Assembly: GCA_012798135.1 (NCBI GenBank)
Contig: JAAZNU010000021.1
Span: 199,797-263,796 of the forward strand
Source of the DNA: Veillonellaceae bacterium
GTDB lineage: Bacteria; Bacillota_C; Negativicutes; UBA1444
Direction: 5' to 3'
DNA length: 64,000 nucleotides
Shown here in pieces: positions 8,131 to 64,000 of this stretch (its first letter is position 1; the number at the start of each line of letters is the position of its first letter). A program made the translations under genes and the position numbers. The notes beneath the pieces are model-generated. The model was not told the origin of the DNA. It did not search any database and saw only the letters and a list, made by a program, of their open reading frames with translations.

Positions 8131-9326
<1,196 letters not shown>

Positions 9327-9335
9327 GCCGGTGAA

Positions 9336-9363
9336 TTGAAACTCCCCGGATTTCTGGTATAAT
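9336..9363 (+). promoter_or_regulatory. Promoter of nadD-yqeK-LCP genes
   Basis: TTGAAA (9336-9341), 16-bp spacer and TATAAT (9358-9363) with extended -10 TGG immediately before. It lies just after the permease stop codon. Confidence 0.8.
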
Positions 9364-9404
9364 AAGACCGCGTGACAAATCACGGGGGCAGGGGAGATGC
9401 TACG

Positions 9405-10022
9405 ATGGCCGATCAGCCGCAGAAGATAGGAATTATGGGCGGGACTTTCGATCCCATCCACATGGGACATCTGGTAATGGCGGAAGCGGTCCGGATGGAC
9501 TATGATCTGGCGAAGGTCATCTTCATTCCCACCGGTACCTCGCCGCATAAGCGGGGGCTGACGGTTACGCCGGCTCTGGACCGTTATATCATGACTATGA
9601 TGGCCACCTATTCCAATCCTTATTTTTTTGTATCGCCGATTGAGAGGGACCGTCCCGGCCCCTCTTTTACCATTGATACGGTGCGGGCCCTGATTGCCCA
9701 ATACGGCGCGGGAACTGAGTTTTATTTTCTGACTGGGACGGACACGGTACTGGAGTTGCATACATGGAACAACATCGACGAACTGTTGGAGCTGTGCCAT
9801 TTTGTGGCAGCCTCCCGGCCGGGAAAAACCAGTAGCATCGCCGAAGCCATCAAACGACTGGGGCCTAAAGCCAAAGAACGGATTCATCGCCTGACCACGC
9901 CGGAACTGGAAATTTCATCGACCGATATCAGGGAACGGGTGCGGCTGGGGAAATCCATCCGATATTTTGTGCCGGAAAATGTCGAGCATTATATTCACAA
10001 GGAAGGACTGTACCTGAAATAA
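9405..10022 (+). CDS. nadD: Nicotinate-nucleotide adenylyltransferase
   Basis: The 205-residue protein carries the nucleotidyltransferase motif GIMGGTFDPIHMGH at its N-terminus and the ISSTDIRERVRLGKSIRY motif near its C-terminus. It makes nicotinate adenine dinucleotide from NaMN and ATP in NAD synthesis. The start is placed at ATG 9405, preceded by GGGGAG; an upstream in-frame GTG at 9372 lacks a ribosome binding site and would add 11 atypical residues. The order nadD-yqeK-LCP-rsfS is common in Firmicutes. Confidence 0.95.
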   Translation: MADQPQKIGIMGGTFDPIHMGHLVMAEAVRMDYDLAKVIFIPTGTSPHKRGLTVTPALDRYIMTMMATYSNPYFFVSPIERDRPGPSFTIDTVRALIAQYGAGTEFYFLTGTDTVLELHTWNNIDELLELCHFVAASRPGKTSSIAEAIKRLGPKAKERIHRLTTPELEISSTDIRERVRLGKSIRYFVPENVEHYIHKEGLYLK

Positions 10023-10026
10023 GCCA

Positions 10027-10614
10027 ATGATGGATTATCAAGAAATTTTGGTCATTCTCGCCAAAGAATTGCGGCCGGCGCGATTCCGCCACAGCCGCGA
10101 AGTGAGCCGGACTGCCGTTCGGCTCGCTGAACGTTGGGGCGTGGATATCGAAAAGGCCCGGCTGGCGGGAATCCTTCACGATTGCGCCCGCAACCTCAAA
10201 GGAAAGGAGCTGCTGAAATGTGCCGCTGCTAACGGCTTACCCGTTAGCGAGATCGAGATTTTGCAGCCGGCGCTGATTCACGCTCCGTTGGGGTCGTTGC
10301 TGGCAGAGCGCCGGTTCGGCGTCGCCGATCCCGAAATTCTGCGGGCCATTGCCCGCCATACCACCGGCGCCGCCCAAATGTCGCCATTGGACAAGATCAT
10401 CTACCTGGCCGACTGCATCGAACCGGGTCGTCACTACCCCGGCGTCGATGAGTTGCGCGCATTGGCGGAACAGGATCTGGACGCCGCAGTGCTACTGGCC
10501 TATGACCACAGCATTTCATTTGTCCTGGCCGGCGGCGGACTGTTGCATCCGAATACGGTCGATGGGCGCAATTCCCTGCTGTTGGAGATGAAAGCGAAAC
10601 ATAATGGCAAGTGA
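10027..10614 (+). CDS. yqeK: HD-domain hydrolase YqeK (diadenosine tetraphosphatase)
   Basis: This 195-residue HD-superfamily protein has metal ligands visible in RFRHSREVSRTAVRLAERW, AGILHDCARN and IHAPLGSLLAE. YqeK of Firmicutes is a symmetrical Ap4A hydrolase, with clients in stress nucleotide turnover. It starts 4 bp after nadD and overlaps the LCP gene by 11 bp, so the three genes are probably co-translated. Confidence 0.9.
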   Translation: MMDYQEILVILAKELRPARFRHSREVSRTAVRLAERWGVDIEKARLAGILHDCARNLKGKELLKCAAANGLPVSEIEILQPALIHAPLGSLLAERRFGVADPEILRAIARHTTGAAQMSPLDKIIYLADCIEPGRHYPGVDELRALAEQDLDAAVLLAYDHSISFVLAGGGLLHPNTVDGRNSLLLEMKAKHNGK

Positions 10615-11563
10615 GCTGAAAAGCCGATTGCGGCAAACAGAGGGTCGTCAGCCGATCCGCAAATCGCGGATATGGCCGAAGGTCCTGCTGTTTTTGTTTG
10701 TTGTGGCGTCGTTGGCCGGCGCGGCCATGCTGGGACGTAATCTGGCGTTGTACGGCCATGTCTGGGGCCCCGGCGAATCCGGCAACCGGATTAACATTTT
10801 GTTGGTAGGCATCGACGACGGCGACCTTGCTGATCCCAAGAACAGTCCCCACCGCTCCGACTCGATGCTGCTGCTTGGCGTGCACAAAGGTTCCGGCGCC
10901 GTTAGTCTGCTGTCAATCCCCCGCGATACCCGCGTGCCGATTCCGGGTCACAGCAACAATGACAAGTTCGGTCATTCCTTCGCCTACGGCGGCGTGGATC
11001 TGACCATTGCCACCTTGCAGGAGTTTCTGAAGGTGCCGGTCCATTACTACGTGGTGGCGGACTGGCAGGGATTCATCCGGGTGGTGGATGCGTTGGGCGG
11101 CGTGGACCTATACGTGGAAAACAAAATGGATTATGAAGACCCTTACGCCAATCTCAAAATTCATCTCAAAAAAGGCTTTCAGCATTTGAACGGTCAACAG
11201 GCCGGCCAATATGTCCGGTTCCGTTACGACGAGATGGGCGATATCGGTCGAGTGATCCGACAGCAGAAATTTCTGAAGGCGCTGGCGACTCAAGCGATTC
11301 GGCCATCAAACCTGATTCGCTTGCCACAGATCATGGGGATTATTGGGCAAAGTGTGCAGACCAATATGACGCCGTGGTCATTCCGGCAAGTGTTCATGGC
11401 CTTGCCTTCTTTGAAAGGAAACAAAATCCAGTCGGACATGGTGCCGGGAAATTTCGCCAACATCGGCGGCGTCAGCTATTGGGCGTCGGATCCGGAGGAA
11501 ACCCGCAAAGTGGTCGAGCGACTGTTCATCGCACCACCTCAACCTCCAGCCGAAAAAAAGTAG
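10604..11563 (+). CDS. LytR-CpsA-Psr (LCP) family protein
   Basis: The 319-residue protein has a short cytoplasmic N-terminus, one membrane helix (about 26-46, VLLFLFVVASLAGAAMLG) and an extracytoplasmic LCP domain. The domain shows NILLVGIDDGD, HRSDSMLLLGV, SIPRDTRVPIPG, YYVVADWQGFIRVVDALGGVD and the R-Q contacts of the pyrophosphate pocket. LCP enzymes transfer polyprenyl-linked glycopolymers to the cell wall. It overlaps yqeK. In a Negativicute the accepted polymer is uncertain. Confidence 0.9.
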   Translation: MASELKSRLRQTEGRQPIRKSRIWPKVLLFLFVVASLAGAAMLGRNLALYGHVWGPGESGNRINILLVGIDDGDLADPKNSPHRSDSMLLLGVHKGSGAVSLLSIPRDTRVPIPGHSNNDKFGHSFAYGGVDLTIATLQEFLKVPVHYYVVADWQGFIRVVDALGGVDLYVENKMDYEDPYANLKIHLKKGFQHLNGQQAGQYVRFRYDEMGDIGRVIRQQKFLKALATQAIRPSNLIRLPQIMGIIGQSVQTNMTPWSFRQVFMALPSLKGNKIQSDMVPGNFANIGGVSYWASDPEETRKVVERLFIAPPQPPAEKK

Positions 11564-11571
11564 CCGGGGAG

Positions 11572-11601
11572 CTGACAGCGGACCTGGAATAACGATATAA
11601 T
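11572..11601 (+). promoter_or_regulatory. Candidate promoter of rsfS
   Basis: CTGACA (11572-11577), 18-bp spacer and a perfect TATAAT (11596-11601) lie in the gap between the LCP gene and rsfS. Confidence 0.6.
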
Positions 11602-11651
11602 ATTGATATTAAGAACAAGGGGCTAATCCCCCGAACGTGAGGAGGCAGAGG

Positions 11652-12011
11652 ATGACCGAAACTGAAAAAACGTCGGCCGAGCTCGTCGAAATCGCGGCAG
11701 CCGCCGCCAGCTCCAAAAAGGCCCAGAACATCGTTATCATGGATATGCAGAAGGTGTTACCGGTCACAGATTATTTTCTGATTGCGAGCGGAACATCAGT
11801 TCCCCAGGTCCAGGCGATTGCCGACGCCATAGAGGAGAAACTGGCCGAGGCCGGCTGGCAGTTCCTGCATAAGGAAGGCTATCGTGAAGCACGCTGGGTG
11901 TTGTTGGATTACGGATTTTTCGTGGCGCATATCTTCGTCAACGAAGAACGCCAGTTTTATAACATGGAGCAACTCTGGAGCGGCGCTCCGGCCCGTGTGT
12001 ACGAGGATTAG
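11652..12011 (+). CDS. rsfS: Ribosomal silencing factor RsfS
   Basis: The 119-residue protein belongs to the RsfS/Iojap family: it has KKAQNIVIMDMQKVLPVTDYFLIASG, the conserved core HKEGYREARWVLLDYGFFVAHIF and a C-terminal YNMEQLWSGAP. RsfS binds L14 and blocks subunit joining in nutrient stress. GGAGG at 11641-11645 sets the start at ATG 11652; the GTG at 11637 lies upstream of that site. Linkage to nadD is typical. Confidence 0.96.
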   Translation: MTETEKTSAELVEIAAAAASSKKAQNIVIMDMQKVLPVTDYFLIASGTSVPQVQAIADAIEEKLAEAGWQFLHKEGYREARWVLLDYGFFVAHIFVNEERQFYNMEQLWSGAPARVYED

Positions 12012-12203
12012 GCGCCCCTGCGCAAAATATATCATGGATCTGAGGCCGCGAAGGCGCATTCCCCATAAACCGGGGTGTGCCCGTCGTGGCTTCTTTTATG
12101 CCAATATGCCAAGGAAACTTTTCAGGCAGGAATCATCGCCCTGACCGGGAATGATTGAAGAGAAATAACAGGGTGATTCCCTGGGCTCAGGAGGGACGGT
12201 TCC
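12012..12203 (+). other. 192-bp structured gap with three successive hairpins
   Basis: Three stems are visible: GGCGCA-TT-CCCC / GGGGTGTGCC (12053-12081) followed at 12090 by TTCTTTT, possibly a weak rsfS terminator; AATCAT..CCC / GGG..ATGATT (12131-12156); and CAGGG/CCCTG just before the AGGAGGG of the next gene. I recognise no known riboswitch class. Confidence 0.4.
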
Positions 12204-14021
12204 ATGCGACAAACGACGGCCGGAGAAGAACAAATCATTCTGACCATTTTTGACGGGACTGGACAGAAGATGTTCAGCGCCCCCAAAGGCCAGCGGCTGC
12301 TGGATATCTTGCGCCGCCAGGGCCTCTATATCAGTTCGCCCTGCGGCGGGCGCGGGACCTGTGGCAAGTGCCGCGTTGAGCTGCGACAGGGAAGAGTTCT
12401 GGTTGCCGGGGCCGCTGAGGAAACGACCGCGATGGCGGAAACTGGTGACAAAGTGCTGGCTTGCCGAAGCTGGCTGACGGAAGATTGCGCGGTCGATGTC
12501 AGCGCCGCCCAGGAACGGGGATTTGCCGCCAACGGCGAGTTCGTCGCTACGGCGCCGGGCGAAATCGATACCGGGTTTGCAATGGTGCGGTTTGCGCCGG
12601 CAGCCGATGATTGGGCTGCGGGACGAAGCGTGGTCGAGGAAATCTGCCGGGGATTGGCGCGGAATCTGACGTTTTCGCCGAAAGCCCTGCGTCAGGTGTC
12701 CTGTTGGCTCGGCGAAGCGTTACAGACCGGCCAGGCCACACCGACTGCGGATCAGCCATTGTTTTTGACGGTATGCGGAAACCGGGTTGCCCATGCGCGG
12801 ACGGAGGAAGCGGAAACACTCTATGGCATCGGCATTGATCTCGGCACGACCACGATTGCCCTGTCACTGGTGGACCTGGTGACGGGGCAGGTGCGAAAAA
12901 CCGTGACCGTGCTCAACTCCCAACGCCAGTACGGCGCGGATGTCATTACCCGTATTCAGAAGGGCGCAGCCGGCTTCACGAGCGAGTTACAGACCTGTGC
13001 CCGCACCGATATTTCCCGGGGAATCCAGGAATTGTGCGCCACGGCGACGGAGGCGGTCATTCGCGTCGTCATCGCCGGCAATACGACGATGATACACTTG
13101 CTGCTGGGGTTGCGCGCCGACTCGTTGGGGCAGTTTCCGTTCCGGCCGGTCTCCGCCGCGTCGGTCGAGTTGTCGTCCGCCGAACTGTTCGGGATTTCCG
13201 GGCTGGATTGCGACGTGATTGTCCTGCCGGCGGTCGGGGCGTTCCTGGGTGCGGACATTGTGGCCGGGATGATGTACTGTGAAATGGAAATTTCACCGGA
13301 GAAGGCCTTGTTCGTCGATGTGGGAACCAACGGTGAACTGGCGGTCGGCGGCAAAGACGGCATCATCTGCACTTCGACCGCGGCGGGACCTGCTTTTGAA
13401 GGGGCGAACATCACCTGGGGAACCGGCAGCGTTGCCGGGGCGATTTCCTGCGTGGACATCCGCAATGGCAAACTCGGGTTCCAAACGATCGGCGATGCGT
13501 CGCCCGTCGGGATCTGCGGTTCGGCTGTGGTGGATATCGCGGCGGTCTGTCTGCGCGAAGGCCTGCTGGATCATACCGGGCTGTTCACATCGGCAGATCT
13601 GCAAAACAATGGATTAAAGATCGCGCAGAAGCCGGACGACGAGTGGATCCGGTTTACCCAAAAAGACGTGCGGGAGTTCCAGCTGGCGAAAGCGGCGATC
13701 CGTTCCGGCCTGGAGCTGCTGGTACAGGAAGCGGGCTGCGGCTGGGCGGACATCGGGCGAGTGTATCTGGCCGGCGGCTTCGGTGCACGAATCGACGTGG
13801 CGAATGCCGTCGCCGTGGGACTATTTCCGGCCGAGCTGCAAGATCGGATTCAACCGGTGGGGAACGCCGCCCTGGGCGGGACGGTGCGTTATCTGCTGTC
13901 GCGGCAGCGACGGGAGGCGGTTGGCGTTCTGAAGCGATCGGCCCGGGTGATTGATCTCTCCCAACATCCGCAATTCAACGATTTGTTTCTGTCGCACCTT
14001 CAGTTCCCGGCTCAGGACTGA
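12204..14021 (+). CDS. 2Fe-2S ferredoxin/ASKHA protein of the corrinoid activator (RACo-like) family
   Basis: The 605-residue protein has an N-terminal [2Fe-2S] ferredoxin domain with Cys47, Cys53, Cys56 and Cys88 (SPCGGRGTCGKC, then ACRSWL). A linker follows, then a C-terminal ASKHA ATPase-like domain (about 208-600) with GIGIDLGTTTIALSLVD, VDVGTNGELAVG and YLAGGFGARIDVANAVAVG. Proteins of this architecture reductively reactivate corrinoid methyltransferase partners at the expense of ATP. No corrinoid protein or methyltransferase lies beside it here, so its client is unknown. CAGGAGGG precedes the ATG. A TauE/SafE permease follows. Confidence 0.88.
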   Translation: MRQTTAGEEQIILTIFDGTGQKMFSAPKGQRLLDILRRQGLYISSPCGGRGTCGKCRVELRQGRVLVAGAAEETTAMAETGDKVLACRSWLTEDCAVDVSAAQERGFAANGEFVATAPGEIDTGFAMVRFAPAADDWAAGRSVVEEICRGLARNLTFSPKALRQVSCWLGEALQTGQATPTADQPLFLTVCGNRVAHARTEEAETLYGIGIDLGTTTIALSLVDLVTGQVRKTVTVLNSQRQYGADVITRIQKGAAGFTSELQTCARTDISRGIQELCATATEAVIRVVIAGNTTMIHLLLGLRADSLGQFPFRPVSAASVELSSAELFGISGLDCDVIVLPAVGAFLGADIVAGMMYCEMEISPEKALFVDVGTNGELAVGGKDGIICTSTAAGPAFEGANITWGTGSVAGAISCVDIRNGKLGFQTIGDASPVGICGSAVVDIAAVCLREGLLDHTGLFTSADLQNNGLKIAQKPDDEWIRFTQKDVREFQLAKAAIRSGLELLVQEAGCGWADIGRVYLAGGFGARIDVANAVAVGLFPAELQDRIQPVGNAALGGTVRYLLSRQRREAVGVLKRSARVIDLSQHPQFNDLFLSHLQFPAQD

Positions 14022-33733: not shown

Positions 33734-35191
33734 TTAGTTAGCGATTGTCAGCTGCTCAAGCTGCTGTTTGAGCTGTATGTTTTCATCCAAGAGCGCCTCC
33801 TTAATGATCTGTCGGCTATGCAGCGAATCTAGGTCGGCTTGGGCTTTTTGCAACAACTTCATCACTTCGGGGATTTCGACCGGTTTTAGGAAAAACCCGT
33901 AGGCGCCGGCATTGATGGCTTCGATGACTGTGATCATGTCGCCGTAGCCGGTATTGAGGACTACCCGGGCAGTGCCGTCGATGTCGCGGATGTTTTTTAA
34001 CAGGGTTAACCCATCCATTTCCGGCATACGTACGTCGGTGATCACCAAATCCGGCCAGATGACGTTGTATTGATTCAGAGCTTGAGCGGACGAGCAAAAT
34101 ACCCGGCAGTGATGACCGGCGGGGGCAATTGCGTCCGCTAATGCATTGGCGCATTCTTGCTCATCATCGACAATCAGGATTTTTAAGTTCCGCTCTCCCG
34201 TGTATTCAATCACTTGAATAAAATGTTCGGCATCGTGTTGCAAGTCCAAGACCAAAGGGTTGTCGGGCGAGCTTTCGGAATTAACCAAAACCCGCGGGCG
34301 GGTCGGAAAATTTTTGTCATAGGAAATGACTTTTCCCAACTCGCCGGTATTAAGATGAATCAGGCAATTCGGCGGATATAGAGTAACCGCGTCCAATAGG
34401 CAGCTGACAATATTCGGCGAGAAGTCCCTGTTACGCAACTTTATAATGATTTCCAGAGCGTGATAGGGCGGAATTGCCGGGCGATAGGAACGAGCCGAAA
34501 TGAGCGCGTCGAAAACATCAGCGATCCCGACAATCTGGGCATACGGGTGGATCTGTTCACCTTGGAGTCCCAGCGGATAACCTTGCCCGTTCCACCGCTC
34601 ATGGTGTTGCTGAACAATCCGTGTTACTTCTGGCGGGAGATCAACCTCTTGGAGCTTGAGAAAACCATTGATGGGATGCGTTTTGATCAGGACATACTCT
34701 TCCGGGAGCAGCCGGCCGGTCTTTTTTAGCAAGTCCGCCGGAACGGTCAGTTTGCCGATGTCGTGCAGCAAGGCGCCCAAAACAATCTGTTCCAGCACCA
34801 AATCCGGCAAATTAATGTGTTTGCCGATTAGATAGCTGAGTCGCCCTACGTTGAGCGAGTGTCGAAAAGTATATGGATCATGTCGCTGCAATGCCCGCAA
34901 ATCGATCCCTTCGTGACGCTCAAGAGAATGAAGGGATTCCTCAACTGCCAGTTCCGCCGCTAAATAGTCCTTGCTTTCAAACAGTTTGCTATTTCGATAG
35001 ACATCGGTTTGTACGGATAAATCGGCGCACAATCGAAATAGTGAATGGGATCGCAGCAACCCGGCGATGGCTGGGGAGAGAGGTTCCCCTTTCGTGACAG
35101 CCACTCGGCCGTCCCGGGTGAAGAGATCGTAGTCGGCGGGTGCGCCGGGAGTAATATTCGAACTGCCATAGGAAATGAATGAGTATTTCAT
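33734..35191 (-). CDS. HD-GYP domain protein with C-terminal receiver domain
   Basis: The 485-residue protein starts at the ATG at 35191 (AAAGGAC upstream); a longer frame from 35209 lacks a site. An N-terminal region (1-100) leads to an HD-GYP domain (about 105-260) with HD143-144 in LLHDIGKL and the signature HHERWNGQGYP (196-206), which predicts c-di-GMP phosphodiesterase activity. A receiver domain (336-460) follows, with VDDE, phospho-acceptor Asp386 in ITDVRMPEMDG and Lys436 in FLKP, then a coiled tail. RpfG-type proteins usually have REC first; here the order is reversed. Confidence 0.9.
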   Translation of the reverse strand: MKYSFISYGSSNITPGAPADYDLFTRDGRVAVTKGEPLSPAIAGLLRSHSLFRLCADLSVQTDVYRNSKLFESKDYLAAELAVEESLHSLERHEGIDLRALQRHDPYTFRHSLNVGRLSYLIGKHINLPDLVLEQIVLGALLHDIGKLTVPADLLKKTGRLLPEEYVLIKTHPINGFLKLQEVDLPPEVTRIVQQHHERWNGQGYPLGLQGEQIHPYAQIVGIADVFDALISARSYRPAIPPYHALEIIIKLRNRDFSPNIVSCLLDAVTLYPPNCLIHLNTGELGKVISYDKNFPTRPRVLVNSESSPDNPLVLDLQHDAEHFIQVIEYTGERNLKILIVDDEQECANALADAIAPAGHHCRVFCSSAQALNQYNVIWPDLVITDVRMPEMDGLTLLKNIRDIDGTARVVLNTGYGDMITVIEAINAGAYGFFLKPVEIPEVMKLLQKAQADLDSLHSRQIIKEALLDENIQLKQQLEQLTIAN

Positions 35192-35229
35192 AGACGTCCT
35201 TTCCCTCATAGTTTGATGTTGTCCCGATT

Positions 35230-35264
35230 AAATAGCAAAAAGCATGCCAAGTACAGGCATGCTT
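35230..35264 (-). terminator. Terminator of the two-component operon
   Basis: AAGCATGCC (35240-35248) / GGCATGCTT (35256-35264), 7-nt loop; on the minus strand the stem is followed by TTTTGCTATTT, after the response-regulator gene. Confidence 0.8.
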
Positions 35265-39551: not shown

Positions 39552-39709
39552 TCTCTTATCGAGAGTGGTCGAGGGACTGGCCCGATGACACCCGGCAACC
39601 GGCAGCAATGCAGTGGTGCCAATTCCAGCAGGAGCAATCCTGAAAGATGAGGGGAAGAGGAAAAGCTTGATTTGCCTCTGTTCCTTCGAACAGAGGCTTT
39701 TCTATTTTT
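39552..39709 (+). promoter_or_regulatory. SAM-I (S-box) riboswitch with terminator, copy 1
   Basis: The aptamer (39552-39660) shows CTCTTATCGAGAG (P1 side), GAGGGACTGGCCCGATGA, CCCGGCAACCGGC, GGTGCCAATTCC and the closing CTGAAAGATGAGGG. The expression platform is a terminator: GCCTCTGTTC (39674-39683) / GAACAGAGGC (39688-39697) then TTTTCTATTTTT. SAM binding should stop transcription of the DUF2292 and MetQ genes. Confidence 0.95.
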
Positions 39710-43033: not shown

Positions 43034-43190
43034 TCATCTCTTATCAAGAGAGGCTGAGGGACTGGCCCGATGACGCCCGGCAACCGGCAGAAATGCAGTG
43101 GTGCCAATTCCAGCAGGAGCAATCCTGAAAGATGAGGGAGCGGAAGCGCGGCATGTGCCTCTGTCCCCTTGGGACAGAGGCTTTTGTTAT
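43034..43190 (+). promoter_or_regulatory. SAM-I (S-box) riboswitch with terminator, copy 2
   Basis: The aptamer (43034-43140) has the same core as copy 1: GAGGGACTGGCCCGATGA, CCCGGCAACCGGC, GGTGCCAATTCC and CTGAAAGATGAGGG. The terminator is GCCTCTGTCCC (43157-43167) / GGGACAGAGGC (43171-43181) then TTTTGTTAT. It controls metX and probably metY. Confidence 0.95.
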
Positions 43191-54787: not shown

Positions 54788-54865
54788 TCGCAGCAGGAAA
54801 TCTGGGCGAAGTCGGCGAAAAACTATAGCCAACTACAAATTCGCCGGAAAAGATAGGTGATCCCG

Positions 54866-55468
54866 ATGAATAACTTTCCTGACAATAATGCCTCCCTACC
54901 GAACCCTGACAGTTCGGGCAGGGAGGCTTCGCTATGTCCAGATTTCACCGCCATCGACTTTGAGACCGCCAATCCATTGATGGACAGCGCCTGCCAGCTC
55001 GGGCTGGCGGTCGTTCAAAACGGCATTGTCGTCGAACGGCGGGACTGGCTGATCTGCCCACCGACCGAACGGTTCGATTTCACCTACATTCACGGAATCA
55101 GCTGGCGGGACGTGGCGGACGCTCCCGATTTTCGCCAACTGTGGCCGGAGATCAGGCCCTATCTGGCGGAGCGGGTGATCGCCGCGCACAACGTGAGTTT
55201 CGACATCAACGTGTTTTTCGCCCTGATCAAGCGCTACCGGATCGAATACTGGCAAGGCGGTACGATCGACTCCGTTACCGTGGCCCGGCGGATCTGGCCG
55301 CACCTGCCGAACCATCAGCTCAGTACGGTCGCTGGGCATCTACAGATCCCGCTCGATCATCACGACGCCGCCAGCGATGCCAATGCTTGCGCCGAAATCA
55401 TCCGTCAGGCCGAAGCGTGCCAGGCCGGCATCGCCAAACGAGTCATGCGCTGGTATGGAAAACGATAA
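54866..55468 (+). CDS. DEDDh 3'-5' exonuclease (DNA polymerase III epsilon-like)
   Basis: The 200-residue protein has the ExoI motif FTAIDFETAN, ExoII HNVSFDINVFF and ExoIIIepsilon LDHHDAASDANACAEI, giving the D-E-D-D-H set. It probably trims DNA or RNA in repair. The start is ATG 54866 (AGGTGA upstream); the GTG at 54857 lies at that site. About 25 residues precede the first motif, more than usual, and their coding DNA forms a strong hairpin (54890-54927). Confidence 0.88.
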   Translation: MNNFPDNNASLPNPDSSGREASLCPDFTAIDFETANPLMDSACQLGLAVVQNGIVVERRDWLICPPTERFDFTYIHGISWRDVADAPDFRQLWPEIRPYLAERVIAAHNVSFDINVFFALIKRYRIEYWQGGTIDSVTVARRIWPHLPNHQLSTVAGHLQIPLDHHDAASDANACAEIIRQAEACQAGIAKRVMRWYGKR

Positions 55469-55503
55469 AAGTCGTTGGCCGTCCACAAAAAAAGACCGCA
55501 CCG

Positions 55504-55544
55504 AATCGACTGACAGGCATATGTCAGTCGATTTTGTTATTTTG
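55504..55544 (+). terminator. Terminator after the exonuclease gene
   Basis: AATCGACTGACA (55504-55515) / TGTCAGTCGATT (55522-55533), 6-nt loop, then TTGTTATTTTG. Confidence 0.9.
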
Positions 55545-55727
55545 CGCTGCCTGCACAGGCTCACTATCCATCCAAACAGTCGCTTTAGTAACATCGGTGC
55601 GAATTTGCACAAAAAATATCCTGACTCGAGCAGGAACTGATAGAAAATGGTAGAAATGGTTTCTTTGGTAGGCTATGGGGATGTGCGAAGCGCCGCCTTG
55701 ACGACCCAATAAAAACGAGAGATACCT
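55545..55727. other. Intergenic stretch without a recognisable gene
   Basis: Between the exonuclease terminator and the 21-bp repeat array I see no supported gene, RNA or promoter. Short frames lack ribosome binding sites. Confidence 0.5.
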
Positions 55728-55811
55728 CCAGGGTAAAATCTTTGCCGGCGGGGGAAAACTTTTTACCCTCGAGGGCAAACTTCTTACCCCCGGGGGTAAA
55801 TACTTTTCCCC
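55728..55811. repeat. Four tandem 21-bp repeats, each a 17-bp dyad, upstream of the cas operon
   Basis: Four adjoining 21-bp units occupy 55728-55748, 55749-55769, 55770-55790 and 55791-55811. Each fits GGG-n-AAA-n3-TTT-n-CCC with few mismatches, a dyad centred in the unit. A fifth, degenerate copy lies at 55872-55888. The period is two helical turns, as for dimers bound side by side. Candidate -10 hexamers (TATAGA 55821, TATACA 55830) follow directly. It looks like a regulatory array for the cas genes; the binding protein is unknown. Confidence 0.8.
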
Positions 55812-55992
55812 GAACTATCCTATAGAACTTATACAAGTAACTTACCCATGGAAGGGAACGTATTAAATTAGGGGCAAAATTCTTGCTATAGGAAAATTTT
55901 TCAAAAAGCGTTCACAAACGAAAAAAGTGACGATAATGGAGTGGGGAGAAGGGGACGTTTGGTAATGACCGGCACAGTTGGGAGGCTAAATA

Positions 55993-60684
<4,692 letters not shown>

Positions 60685-60698
60685 AAAGGGTGAATATG

Positions 60699-61556
60699 AT
60701 GAGCAAAATTTTGGACAAGCGCTATGAATTCGTTCTGTTCTTCGAAGTGGAAAATGGCAATCCAAATGGTGATCCGGATGCCGGGAATATGCCGCGAATT
60801 GATCCGGAAACCAGCCATGGTCTGGTGACGGATGTGTGCCTGAAGCGCAAAGTCCGTAATTATATCGATCTCGTTAAGGGTGGAAATGCTCCCTACGATA
60901 TTTATGTCCGTGAAAATGCGGTTCTCAACAACGTTAATCTGGAAGCATACAAAGAGTTAGGCATAAAACCTGAACCCAAAAAACTACCCAAGGATGATCC
61001 TTTGGCGCCAATAAAATATATGTGCAATCGATTTTTTGACATTCGCGCTTTTGGCGCAGTGATGACGACTGAAGTAAATTGCGGTCAGGTTCGCGGACCG
61101 ATTCAATTTGGCTTTGCCAAGAGTCTGGATCCCATCGTGCCGCAGGAAGTGACAATCACCCGTATGGCGGTCACCAATGAAAAGGACGCGGAGAAAGAAC
61201 GGACCATGGGCCGCAAACATATTGTGCCGTATGCATTATACCGCGCCGAAGGGTATGTTTCTGCGCCGTTGGCAGAGAAAACCAACTTTAGCGATGAGGA
61301 TCTAGCATTATTTTGGGATGCCCTGCTAAATATGTTTGAACATGACCATTCGGCGGCGCGGGGACGGATGGCCAGCAGGAAGCTCATCATTTTCGAACAT
61401 GAATCTCGGCTGGGCAATGCGCCGGCACACAAGTTGTTTGAACTTGTTTTAACAAAGCGAAAAGATTGTAGTGCACCGCCTCGGGCGTTTGCCGATTATG
61501 AAATTGTTATTGATAAAGCAAACAAACCCGACGGCGTAACGATTTTAGAAAAATGA
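60699..61556 (+). CDS. cas7c: Type I-C Cascade backbone Cas7
   Basis: The 285-residue Csd2-family protein has FEVENGNPNGDPDAGNMPRI and TDVCLKRKVRNYI, hallmarks of the family. It polymerises along the crRNA. GAAAGGG upstream fits ATG 60699 (ATG 60696 and GTG 60690 are alternatives). Its end overlaps cas4 by 4 bp. Confidence 0.96.
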   Translation: MSKILDKRYEFVLFFEVENGNPNGDPDAGNMPRIDPETSHGLVTDVCLKRKVRNYIDLVKGGNAPYDIYVRENAVLNNVNLEAYKELGIKPEPKKLPKDDPLAPIKYMCNRFFDIRAFGAVMTTEVNCGQVRGPIQFGFAKSLDPIVPQEVTITRMAVTNEKDAEKERTMGRKHIVPYALYRAEGYVSAPLAEKTNFSDEDLALFWDALLNMFEHDHSAARGRMASRKLIIFEHESRLGNAPAHKLFELVLTKRKDCSAPPRAFADYEIVIDKANKPDGVTILEK

Positions 61557-62242
61557 TGACTGGCGATGAAGATGACCTGCTGCTGCTTTCAGGAATCCAA
61601 CATATGGCTTTTTGCGAGCGGCAGTGGGCGCTCATCCATATCGAACAGGTATGGGCGGAAAATGTGCGAACCGTGGAAGGCAAACATTTGCATGAACACG
61701 CCGATGATCCGTTTTTTGATGAGACGCGAAATAATCTTCGGGTGGTGCGCGGCATGCCGGTCGTTTCACAACGGCTCGGACTGCGTGGCGTTGCCGACGT
61801 GGTGGAATTTTACCGAAACGACACTTTTGTCGACGGCCAGACTTGTAGATTGGATGATCGTTCGGGTTGGTGGAAGCCGGTCCCGATCGAATACAAACGC
61901 GGCAAGCCCAAACCCGACGATCGGGACGCCGTGCAAGTCTGCGCCCAGGCTATGGCGCTCGAAGAAATGCTGAATGTTCACATTTCCGAAGGGGCGGTTT
62001 ACTATGCCCAAGTCCGGCGTCGCGAGCCGATCATTCTTGACGAAACGCTGCGGACCCATACGACGAATTTGGCGCTGCGGATGCACGAACTGGTTCGGCA
62101 AGGGTTGACCCCGAAAGCTCCCAAGGGAAAACACTGTTCACAATGTTCCTTGATCGAGCAATGCCAGCCGAACTGGATGTTGAAGCATCATTCCGTCAAA
62201 AACTATCTTGACCGGATGTGCCGGATGGAGGTGAGTGATTGA
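61553..62242 (+). CDS. cas4: CRISPR-associated exonuclease Cas4
   Basis: The 229-residue RecB-type nuclease has an N-terminal cysteine in MAFCERQWALIH, the nuclease core with IEYKRGKPKPDDRDAVQVCAQAM, and a C-terminal cysteine cluster CSQCSLIEQC. The four cysteines bind 4Fe-4S. Cas4 trims prespacers and checks the PAM with Cas1-Cas2. It overlaps both neighbouring cas genes by 4 bp. Confidence 0.95.
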   Translation: MMTGDEDDLLLLSGIQHMAFCERQWALIHIEQVWAENVRTVEGKHLHEHADDPFFDETRNNLRVVRGMPVVSQRLGLRGVADVVEFYRNDTFVDGQTCRLDDRSGWWKPVPIEYKRGKPKPDDRDAVQVCAQAMALEEMLNVHISEGAVYYAQVRRREPIILDETLRTHTTNLALRMHELVRQGLTPKAPKGKHCSQCSLIEQCQPNWMLKHHSVKNYLDRMCRMEVSD

Positions 62243-63270
62243 GGCGCTTATTAAACACGCTGTATGTGACGATACCTGAATCCTATCTCGCCTGTGACGG
62301 GGAAAATGTCTTGATCAAAGTTCAAAATGAAGTGAAATTCCGGGTTCCGGTGCATAACCTGGAAGGGATCGTTTGTTTTGGCTTTGCCGGCGCATCGCCC
62401 AAGCTGATGAAGTTGTGTTGTGAACGGAATGTCGCGTTATCGTTCCTGTCCGAGTACGGAGGCTTTATGGGCCGGGTATCCGGCAAAGTGTCAGGCAATG
62501 TGCTGTTGCGGCGAACCCAGTATCGTTGGGCGGATGATGCGACGATTTCCACCCGGATGGCGCAGCGGTTTATCGCCGCGAAAATTGTGAACAGCCGGGC
62601 GTTGTTGCACCGGGCTCTGCGCGATCATGTCGATGTTGTGGAGATCGAGCCGCTGGAACGGGCGATCGGTTTGATGGCGGGGATGATGACCCGTTTGGGT
62701 GATGCTTCTTCCGGGGATGTGATCCGGGGAATCGAAGGGGAAGCAGCCAATGTATACTTCGCTAATTTTAATCAGATGCTGTTGGCGCAGCAGGATGCCT
62801 TTCGGTTGAAAGACCGGAACCGAAGACCGCCAACAGACCCCATGAATGCGTTGTTGTCCTTTCTGTATACGCTGCTGGCGCACGAGGCAACCGCTGCCTT
62901 AGAAAGTGTTGGCCTTGATCCGCAGGTCGGCTTTTTGCATCGGGATCGCCCCGGGAGAGCAAGCTTGGCATTGGATTTGATGGAGGAGATGCGGCCGCAC
63001 TTTGCGGATCGATTGGCCTTGACGTTGGTAAATCGTCGGCAAATTACAGGGAAAGGGTTCGTGGTCAAGGAAAGCGGCGCGGTGATCATGGATGACGAGA
63101 CGCGAAAAGAAGTGCTGAACGCCTGGCAAAAGCGCAAGCAGGAAGAAATCACTCATCCGTATCTGGAAGAGAAAATACCGTTGGGATTGGTGCCCTATGC
63201 GCAGGCCATGTTGTTGGCACGGCACATGCGGGGCGATCTGGAGGATTATCCGCCGTTTTTCTGGAAATGA
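62239..63270 (+). CDS. cas1: CRISPR integrase Cas1
   Basis: The 343-residue protein starts at TTG 62239, overlapping the cas4 stop, with GGAGGTGAG before it. Metal-ligand regions are visible: IRGIEGEAANVYF (Glu), GFLHRDRPGR (His) and ALDLMEEMRP (Asp/Glu). LSFLYTLLAHEATAALESVGLDPQVG is typical of type I Cas1. It integrates spacers with Cas2. Confidence 0.97.
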   Translation: MRRLLNTLYVTIPESYLACDGENVLIKVQNEVKFRVPVHNLEGIVCFGFAGASPKLMKLCCERNVALSFLSEYGGFMGRVSGKVSGNVLLRRTQYRWADDATISTRMAQRFIAAKIVNSRALLHRALRDHVDVVEIEPLERAIGLMAGMMTRLGDASSGDVIRGIEGEAANVYFANFNQMLLAQQDAFRLKDRNRRPPTDPMNALLSFLYTLLAHEATAALESVGLDPQVGFLHRDRPGRASLALDLMEEMRPHFADRLALTLVNRRQITGKGFVVKESGAVIMDDETRKEVLNAWQKRKQEEITHPYLEEKIPLGLVPYAQAMLLARHMRGDLEDYPPFFWK

Positions 63271-63281
63271 GGTGATGCGAT

Positions 63282-63572
63282 ATGATGGTGTTAATCACAT
63301 ATGACGTGAGTGTCACGACGGATAGCGGCAAAGCCCGCTTGCGCAAGGTTGCGAAGCAGTGCGTCAACTATGGGCAACGGGTTCAAAATTCGGTGTTTGA
63401 ATGCTTGGTGGACCCAACCGAGTTCGCAGAATTGAGGCATCGACTTGAAAGCATTATCGATCCGGAAACGGATAGTTTGCGGTACTATTTCCTGGGAAGC
63501 AACTGGAAAAGTCGAGTTGAGCATGCCGGCGCAAAAACGGGTTACGATCCGGAAGGAATGATGATGGTGTAG
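63282..63572 (+). CDS. cas2: CRISPR-associated protein Cas2
   Basis: The 96-residue ferredoxin-fold protein begins MMVLITYDVSVTTDSGKARLRKVAKQC and has NYGQRVQNSVFECLVDPTEF, the Cas2 signature. It bridges Cas1 dimers during spacer capture. GAGGTGATG precedes the ATG. The array begins about 170 bp later. Confidence 0.97.
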   Translation: MMVLITYDVSVTTDSGKARLRKVAKQCVNYGQRVQNSVFECLVDPTEFAELRHRLESIIDPETDSLRYYFLGSNWKSRVEHAGAKTGYDPEGMMMV

Positions 63573-63740: not shown

Positions 63741-64000
63741 GTCGCGCCCCGCGCGGGCGCGTGGATTGAAACCGCTATTTGGCAAAGGAGATCCACAGAA
63801 TCATGTCGCGCCCCGCGCGGGCGCGTGGATTGAAACCCGGATTTTTGCCGGATCACCAGCCCCATAAGGTCGCGCCCCGCGCGGGCGCGTGGATTGAAAC
63901 GCTGATAATCAGTTGGCATTCCGCCGGGGTGATCGTCGCGCCCCGCGCGGGCGCGTGGATTGAAACCCATGTATGCTCCCCACCGAACGATAGCGGGACG
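63741..64000 (+). CRISPR. Type I-C CRISPR array (continues past the window)
   Basis: Four identical 32-bp repeats lie at 63741-63772, 63805-63836, 63869-63900 and 63935-63966; each begins GTCGCGCCCC, has an inner CGCGCGGGCGCG stem and ends GTGGATTGAAAC, the classic I-C repeat. Complete spacers are 63773-63804 (32 bp), 63837-63868 (32 bp) and 63901-63934 (34 bp); a fourth starts at 63967 and is cut by the window edge. Confidence 0.99.

Follow-up and report, generated by a model that had tools for sequence, protein, structure and literature searches.

The type I-C cas operon in the window (the whole stretch of DNA analyzed, 64 kb long) is preceded by an array of four tandem 21-bp dyads, which we tentatively interpret as a block of iterons from a phage-type replication origin, retained at cas as a cis element for a phage initiator. 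The origin-like segment stands alone, directly before the cas operon and with no initiator gene around it. The coordinates of the locus are collected in Table 1.

Table 1. Features of the locus around the iteron array (positions are those of the window).
Feature	Position	Strand	Remarks
DnaQ-like 3'-5' exonuclease gene	54857..55468	+	RNase_T PF00929; cas operon lies downstream
Intrinsic terminator of upstream operon	55503..55534	+	13-bp stem, T-rich tail
Four tandem 21-bp iterons (putative)	55731..55810	none	Cores 55732-55746, 55753-55767, 55774-55788, 55795-55809; GGNAA-N5-TTNCC
Three AT-rich 13-mers, AACTATCCTATAG / AACTTATACAAGT / AACTTACCCATGG	55813..55851	none	Period-13 self-match 17 of 29
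Fifth, isolated dyad, GGCAAAATTCTTGCT	55873..55887	none	One mismatch here; perfect in G430 (L054:9234)
Conserved leader	55888..55946	+	55854-55946 identical to G430 at 89/93 positions
cas3	55993..58239	+	
cas5, cas8c (Csd1), cas7, cas4, cas1, cas2	58262..63572	+	Type I-C operon
CRISPR array, 32-bp repeats	63741..64000	+	4 repeats in window; window end cuts array

The type I-C operon is complete (cas3-cas5-cas8c-cas7-cas4-cas1-cas2, 55993-63572) and is followed by a CRISPR array. Since the terminator upstream of it closes the bioB/dnaQ operon, the cas genes probably need a promoter of their own in 55535-55993. The four spacers in the window had no match in six fetched loci, and one of them, searched for exactly, had none in viral contigs. 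Elsewhere in the window, two SAM riboswitches (RF00162) were located at 39553-39653 and 43038-43138, the second upstream of metX.

The four dyad units adjoin one another, as had been described from the sequence alone, and start at 55731, 55752, 55773, and 55794. Compared with GGGNAAANNNTTTNCCC, two units were exact and two carried one mismatch; at up to two mismatches, this pattern had 19 matches in the window, as opposed to a mean of 4.95 and a maximum of 11 in 100 shuffles. At periods of 12 to 40, self-matching in 63 columns peaked at 44, at position 55728 with a period of 21. Dinucleotide shuffling of the 524-bp intergenic region, repeated 300 times, never reached this value (the maximum was 35), and no self-match of 38 or more was found elsewhere in the 64-kb window, leaving the array as the only such one there. 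All four units satisfied a tighter core, GGNAA-N5-TTNCC. Because the window has six more single perfect cores outside the array, where about one is expected on uniform bases, the tandem arrangement is the unusual part; the double-unit pattern had three matches at the array and none in 100 shuffles. The four-dyad array is confirmed as real, beyond chance. It had no match in plasmid and phage records. We know of no regulator that fits the odd-centered GGGTAAA-N3-TTTACCC, and the operator of a known family was rejected as a candidate for lack of such a fit. A coding heptapeptide repeat was likewise discarded: the array reads as GKxFxP-like heptads on both strands, and phage initiator genes do encode such a repeat, but no gene surrounds it here.

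The same core was frequent in viral contigs. An exact scan for three tandem GGNAA-N5-TTNCC cores at 21-bp spacing returned at least 120 of them, as opposed to 1 for the reversed control; a stricter double-dyad pattern was found in no viral contig. Eighty of these contigs were fetched, and in all 80 the array lay within an open frame 180 or more codons long (stop to stop, longest frame taken), although they hold 35 distinct arrays, many in near-identical O-like genes, and are not 80 independent cases. Pfam placed three of four viral frames tested in Phage_rep_O, and the three frames compared with PHROGs all fell in "replication initiation" families, including that of L100, which had no Pfam match. 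Since four O-like viral genes (L065, L066, L112, and L132) read the dyads in a frame other than that of the usual GKxFP heptads and so encode other heptads, the DNA dyad itself seems to be the conserved entity. What the window array shares with the viral initiator-type frames is the iteron core.

We also searched 350 genomes of the class to which G147 belongs, presumably Negativicutes. The double-dyad pattern at up to three mismatches occurred in six of them, compared to one genome for the reversed control. Two arrays were found in genome G430; the other five genomes had one match each, at three mismatches, and these were judged to be background or unrelated repeats. One such match (L045, G699:C6 around 15522) comes from a run of GGKxxP-type coding repeats, which may be another initiator-type origin.

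In one of the two G430 arrays (L055), the repeats follow the HTH-coding part of an HTH_36 gene that is 99% identical to P0121 and is interrupted by a stop; P0121 was assigned to PHROG 270, "replication initiation protein." The following gene matches PF11417, the helicase loader/inhibitor of phage G40P, an XRE-type gene is divergent, and the locus appears to be a phage-type replication module. The same contig carries secretin and phosphoesterase genes; a prophage was not delimited. The window array and its flank were 76% identical to L055 over 92 nt (E = 3e-11), and the non-repeat flank alone, with the iterons excluded (55812-55860), was homologous to the post-iteron segment of the L055 initiator gene with a score of 49, as opposed to a maximum of 27 in 5,000 shuffles. 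From the array through ~50 bp beyond it, the window sequence is homologous to the iterons and 13-mers of a phage-type initiator gene, and the dedicated operator, ending at a -35 element, that had been proposed here is not supported. In tblastn comparisons of five family members with the array site, residues 82-153 of ~177 were covered, and in no case did a match extend into the HTH domain or the 24 C-terminal residues; at E < 0.08 the array segment was the only match, and no initiator gene was found in the window. Since no initiator HTH domain remains at the array, the origin appears to have been kept but not the gene.

P0121-like HTH_36 genes were present in 5 of the 350 class genomes. By eye, they contain tandem GGNAA/TTNCC-type dyads and then AACT-type repeats, most clearly in L055, L059, and L061; the dyads were weakest in L058 and L060, with two N5 cores and no exact core. 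The dyads of the HTH_36 initiator-like genes L059 (1795-1900) and L061 (1816-1921) have N7 rather than N5 spacing, and the window therefore matches the specificity of L055. From these sequences, iteron specificity appears to vary between initiators. In viral contigs P0121 had one weak match, of 44 residues and not initiator-like on reading, and in annotated phage records it had 16 weak matches, mostly to products listed as HTH protein or repressor or left unannotated, with one "replication initiation protein."

The other G430 array (L054) occupies the same chromosomal site as that in the window, and G430 was the one genome found to share this site. The bioB-dnaQ segment was 89.7% identical between the two, the 38-bp terminator region (55503-55540) 100%, and the array with its leader 90.3% over 269 bp, or 95% over 222 bp from 55725. 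Between terminator and array, G430 has a VWA gene and a gene for a WYL-WCX regulator; the latter (L054 8091-9065) encodes WYL and WCX domains with a weak HTH match, and 27 bp separate its end from the array. The array and cas3 are in turn separated by an ORF that has HTH_17 and matches TrbI below threshold. The G430 Cas3 encoded downstream of the array is only 37-43% identical to that of the window, and therefore one module stands before two distinct I-C operons.

Two further observations concern this chromosomal site. In L054 the interval 9318-12867 holds the HTH_17 ORF and then the different I-C cas3, the frame of which is split at an N-run near 12009, and the I-C operon seems to have been swapped here. 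The upstream neighbor in both the window and G430 is a DnaQ-like exonuclease gene; such a gene is also found just upstream of I-C cas3 in L038 and L044 (two of nine class loci), and the exonuclease is possibly an accessory of spacer adaptation.

The three AT-rich 13-mers next to the iterons resemble a DNA unwinding element and may serve as one. Within them lie the TATAGA and TATACA hexamers, which had been taken for -10 boxes; both form part of repeats whose homologues lie in a phage-type initiator gene, which speaks against that assignment. The sigma-70 promoter with its -35 at the array end was not recovered either: a promoter scan found no -35/-10 hexamers at 16-18 bp there, and its only match was at 55965-55994. 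The true promoter is probably in the conserved leader, where TTCACA at 55911 and GATAAT at 55932, with a spacing of 15, form a weak candidate that was read by eye and missed by the scan. The degenerate copy noted at 55872 corresponds to GGCAA-N5-TTGCT (55873-55887), which departs from the core at one base. A sigma-54 -24/-12 site (GG-N10-GC) at 55872 scored 13.2 of 20.8 and ranked fifth in the window. We set aside a sigma-54 promoter at this position with the array as its enhancer, for the site is itself a dyad, the fifth, and GG-N10-GC is also found in iteron unit 1; dyad symmetry by itself may produce such a match. A strong sigma-54-like site (TGGCATGCTTTTTGCT) is present at 35234-35249 on the minus strand, just upstream of the minus-strand gene 33734-35209.

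How widely the array accompanies I-C operons was judged from relatives of Cas3, which had 7,999 homologues in all. Among the 120 listed, the two closest (P0001 and P0002) were 94-95% identical, another (P0003) was 78% identical, and the named ones at 65-68% belonged to Sporomusaceae (Pelorhabdus, Sporomusa, and Pelosinus) and to Pelotomaculum/Desulfotomaculaceae. Cas3 matches were found in 23 of 299 phylum genomes (E <= 1e-150), in 9 of 350 class genomes (E <= 1e-180, 62-68% identity), and in no viral contig. The resulting I-C set had 44 rows; L030 was dropped, with only 2 bp before cas3, and one locus appears twice, as L001 and L020, so that the 43 readable rows represent 42 distinct loci. 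Within the regions examined, up to 700 bp upstream of cas3 in a set that does not include the loci of the 94-95% homologues, none of the 43 rows contained chained dyads, including the nine loci at 62-68% Cas3 identity. The best repeat in these rows was 34 of 63 at periods 17-25, as opposed to 44 in the window. The idea that related I-C loci would carry the array thus held for G430 but failed in all 43 readable rows outside the closest relative. A conserved I-C element was rejected accordingly; the array is a lineage trait, and its recurrence was not seen in the 43 readable I-C rows. Genes for WYL-domain regulators were noted just upstream of cas3 in 3 of the 44 rows (L009 8305-8796, L012 8499-8927, and L013 390-1298).

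The comparison with G430 allowed the constraint on the element to be gauged. The iterons were identical at 77 of 81 positions and the 13-mers at 41 of 42. Iterons and 13-mers taken together were identical at 118 of 123 positions (95.9%), as opposed to 199 of 262 (76%) at the fourfold sites of bioB and dnaQ (P = 2.6e-7), and the flank just upstream of the array was identical at 36 of 53 (67.9%). The four iteron cores are intact in both genomes; in the window, the core of the fifth dyad is altered. Within the array, the four differences spare the core bases, for which the chance expectation is about one in eight. On this evidence the element looks constrained, and the high identity, taken from one genome pair, could reflect purifying selection or a recent local recombination tract.

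The array may instead be an inert relic, a functionless fragment left over from a phage or prophage origin, with its likeness to G430 explained by a recent recombination tract or by the adjacent promoter. Source DNA for such a relic would be at hand, since G430 carries the related, stop-interrupted initiator gene elsewhere; none of the other 43 readable I-C rows has the array, and the constraint is seen in a single genome pair. We nevertheless hold an inert relic to be possible but doubtful: the iterons and 13-mers exceed both the fourfold sites and the upstream flank in identity, the four cores survive in both genomes, and the origin part alone was kept while the gene was not.

The HTH-WYL-WCX protein of G430 could bind the dyads as an operator and control cas. 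Its gene ends close to the array, WYL genes adjoin I-C cas3 in the three rows noted above, and PMC9122601 offers a precedent in a WYL protein that represses an I-D locus and in BrxR, which binds inverted repeats. The resemblance to BrxR and Sll7009 consists of inverted repeats near defense operons and of the WYL gene beside the G430 array. The window, however, has the array but no homologue of the G430 WYL protein (tblastn best E, 0.71), L009, L012, and L013 have the WYL gene but not the array, and the homology of the array points to phage-type origins, so a WYL operator is improbable. We give even less credence to the sequence-only reading, an operator through which a dimeric host regulator activates a poor -35. 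It correctly described dyads at a two-turn period just before the I-C cas operon, in an array of the type that binds proteins cooperatively; these in-phase dyads adjoin the operon, and the upstream terminator implies a separate promoter. An ordinary operator does not agree, however, with a promoter scan that finds none at the array end, with supposed -10 hexamers that fall in origin-type 13-mers, or with the use of the same core in viral initiator genes. An RNA-level element, with the dyads as hairpins in a leader transcript, is scarcely credible despite a fold z-score of -3.55 (0 of 200 shuffles were as stable) and a weak terminator-like hairpin at 55784-55799, because any palindromic repeat folds as a by-product and the dyad is retained within viral genes in more than one reading frame.

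Several phage-origin features are thus present, namely tandem dyad iterons in helical phase, a core common to phage initiator genes, and adjacent AT-rich repeats, and one is missing, an initiator gene around or beside the array. Lambda iterons, too, are dyad-symmetric. The lambda origin lies inside gene O and consists of four initiator-bound iterons and an adjacent AT-rich tract (PMC7466680). The window likewise has four iterons and an AT-rich tract, with a core of the class found in viral Phage_rep_O frames, but its array lies before cas3 in a bacterial chromosome, without a surrounding initiator gene. In SPP1, direct repeats inside the initiator gene and an AT-rich unwinding element make up oriL, and the second origin, oriR, is elsewhere and exemplifies an origin apart from its initiator gene (PMC6316719). 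The G430 module resembles SPP1 gp38-gp39-gp40 in having a gp39-type loader/inhibitor (PF11417), whereas neither a loader gene nor a helicase gene was observed next to the array in the window. Phage origin segments are also known on the host side: in phage-encoded resistance (PER), a host-carried segment restrains phages in a copy-number-dependent manner (PMC6356513), and a plasmid-borne origin segment inhibits phage through lambda iterons (PMC3349717). The window differs from both in having one chromosomal copy joined to cas genes. The PLE satellite, an anti-phage element that replicates during infection, has a semi-palindromic iteron origin (PMC8263062), and the putative iteron origin of the window is similarly found in an anti-phage setting. 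PLE, however, encodes its own RepA, and we noted no cas operon placed after an origin of this kind in PMC8263062. In the parts of the open-license literature on cas regulation and phage origins that we consulted, we recognized no report in which a cas operon is preceded by a phage origin or by initiator iterons. Elements of this kind are familiar; what looks new is where this one lies and what it may do.

If the array is a retained phage-type iteron block, a phage with a matching initiator that replicates in the cell would load its initiator cooperatively on the four in-phase iterons. The promoter region of cas could then be switched or opened; local replication could fire and amplify the cas genes; or the array could act as a decoy that sequesters (titrates) the initiator. 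Both the binding and its effect on cas are supposed here, and induction, amplification, and decoy action are not separable by sequence. The boldest form of this scheme, which we consider rather unlikely, is that the cas operon is wired to phage replication: the captured origin would be an infection sensor or amplifier at which the initiator of an infecting or induced phage binds, melts the 13-mers, and induces or locally replicates cas just as phage replication begins.

How cells raise CRISPR-cas expression only in the presence of phage is poorly understood. If the cas operon is indeed wired in this way, the phage's own initiator would be the signal for cas, and it is a signal that a phage could not drop without losing replication. 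If it is only a relic, the array still shows that palindromic repeats ahead of defense genes may represent a phage origin and not an operator. Three tandem copies of GGNAA-N5-TTNCC provide a simple search key for such origins.
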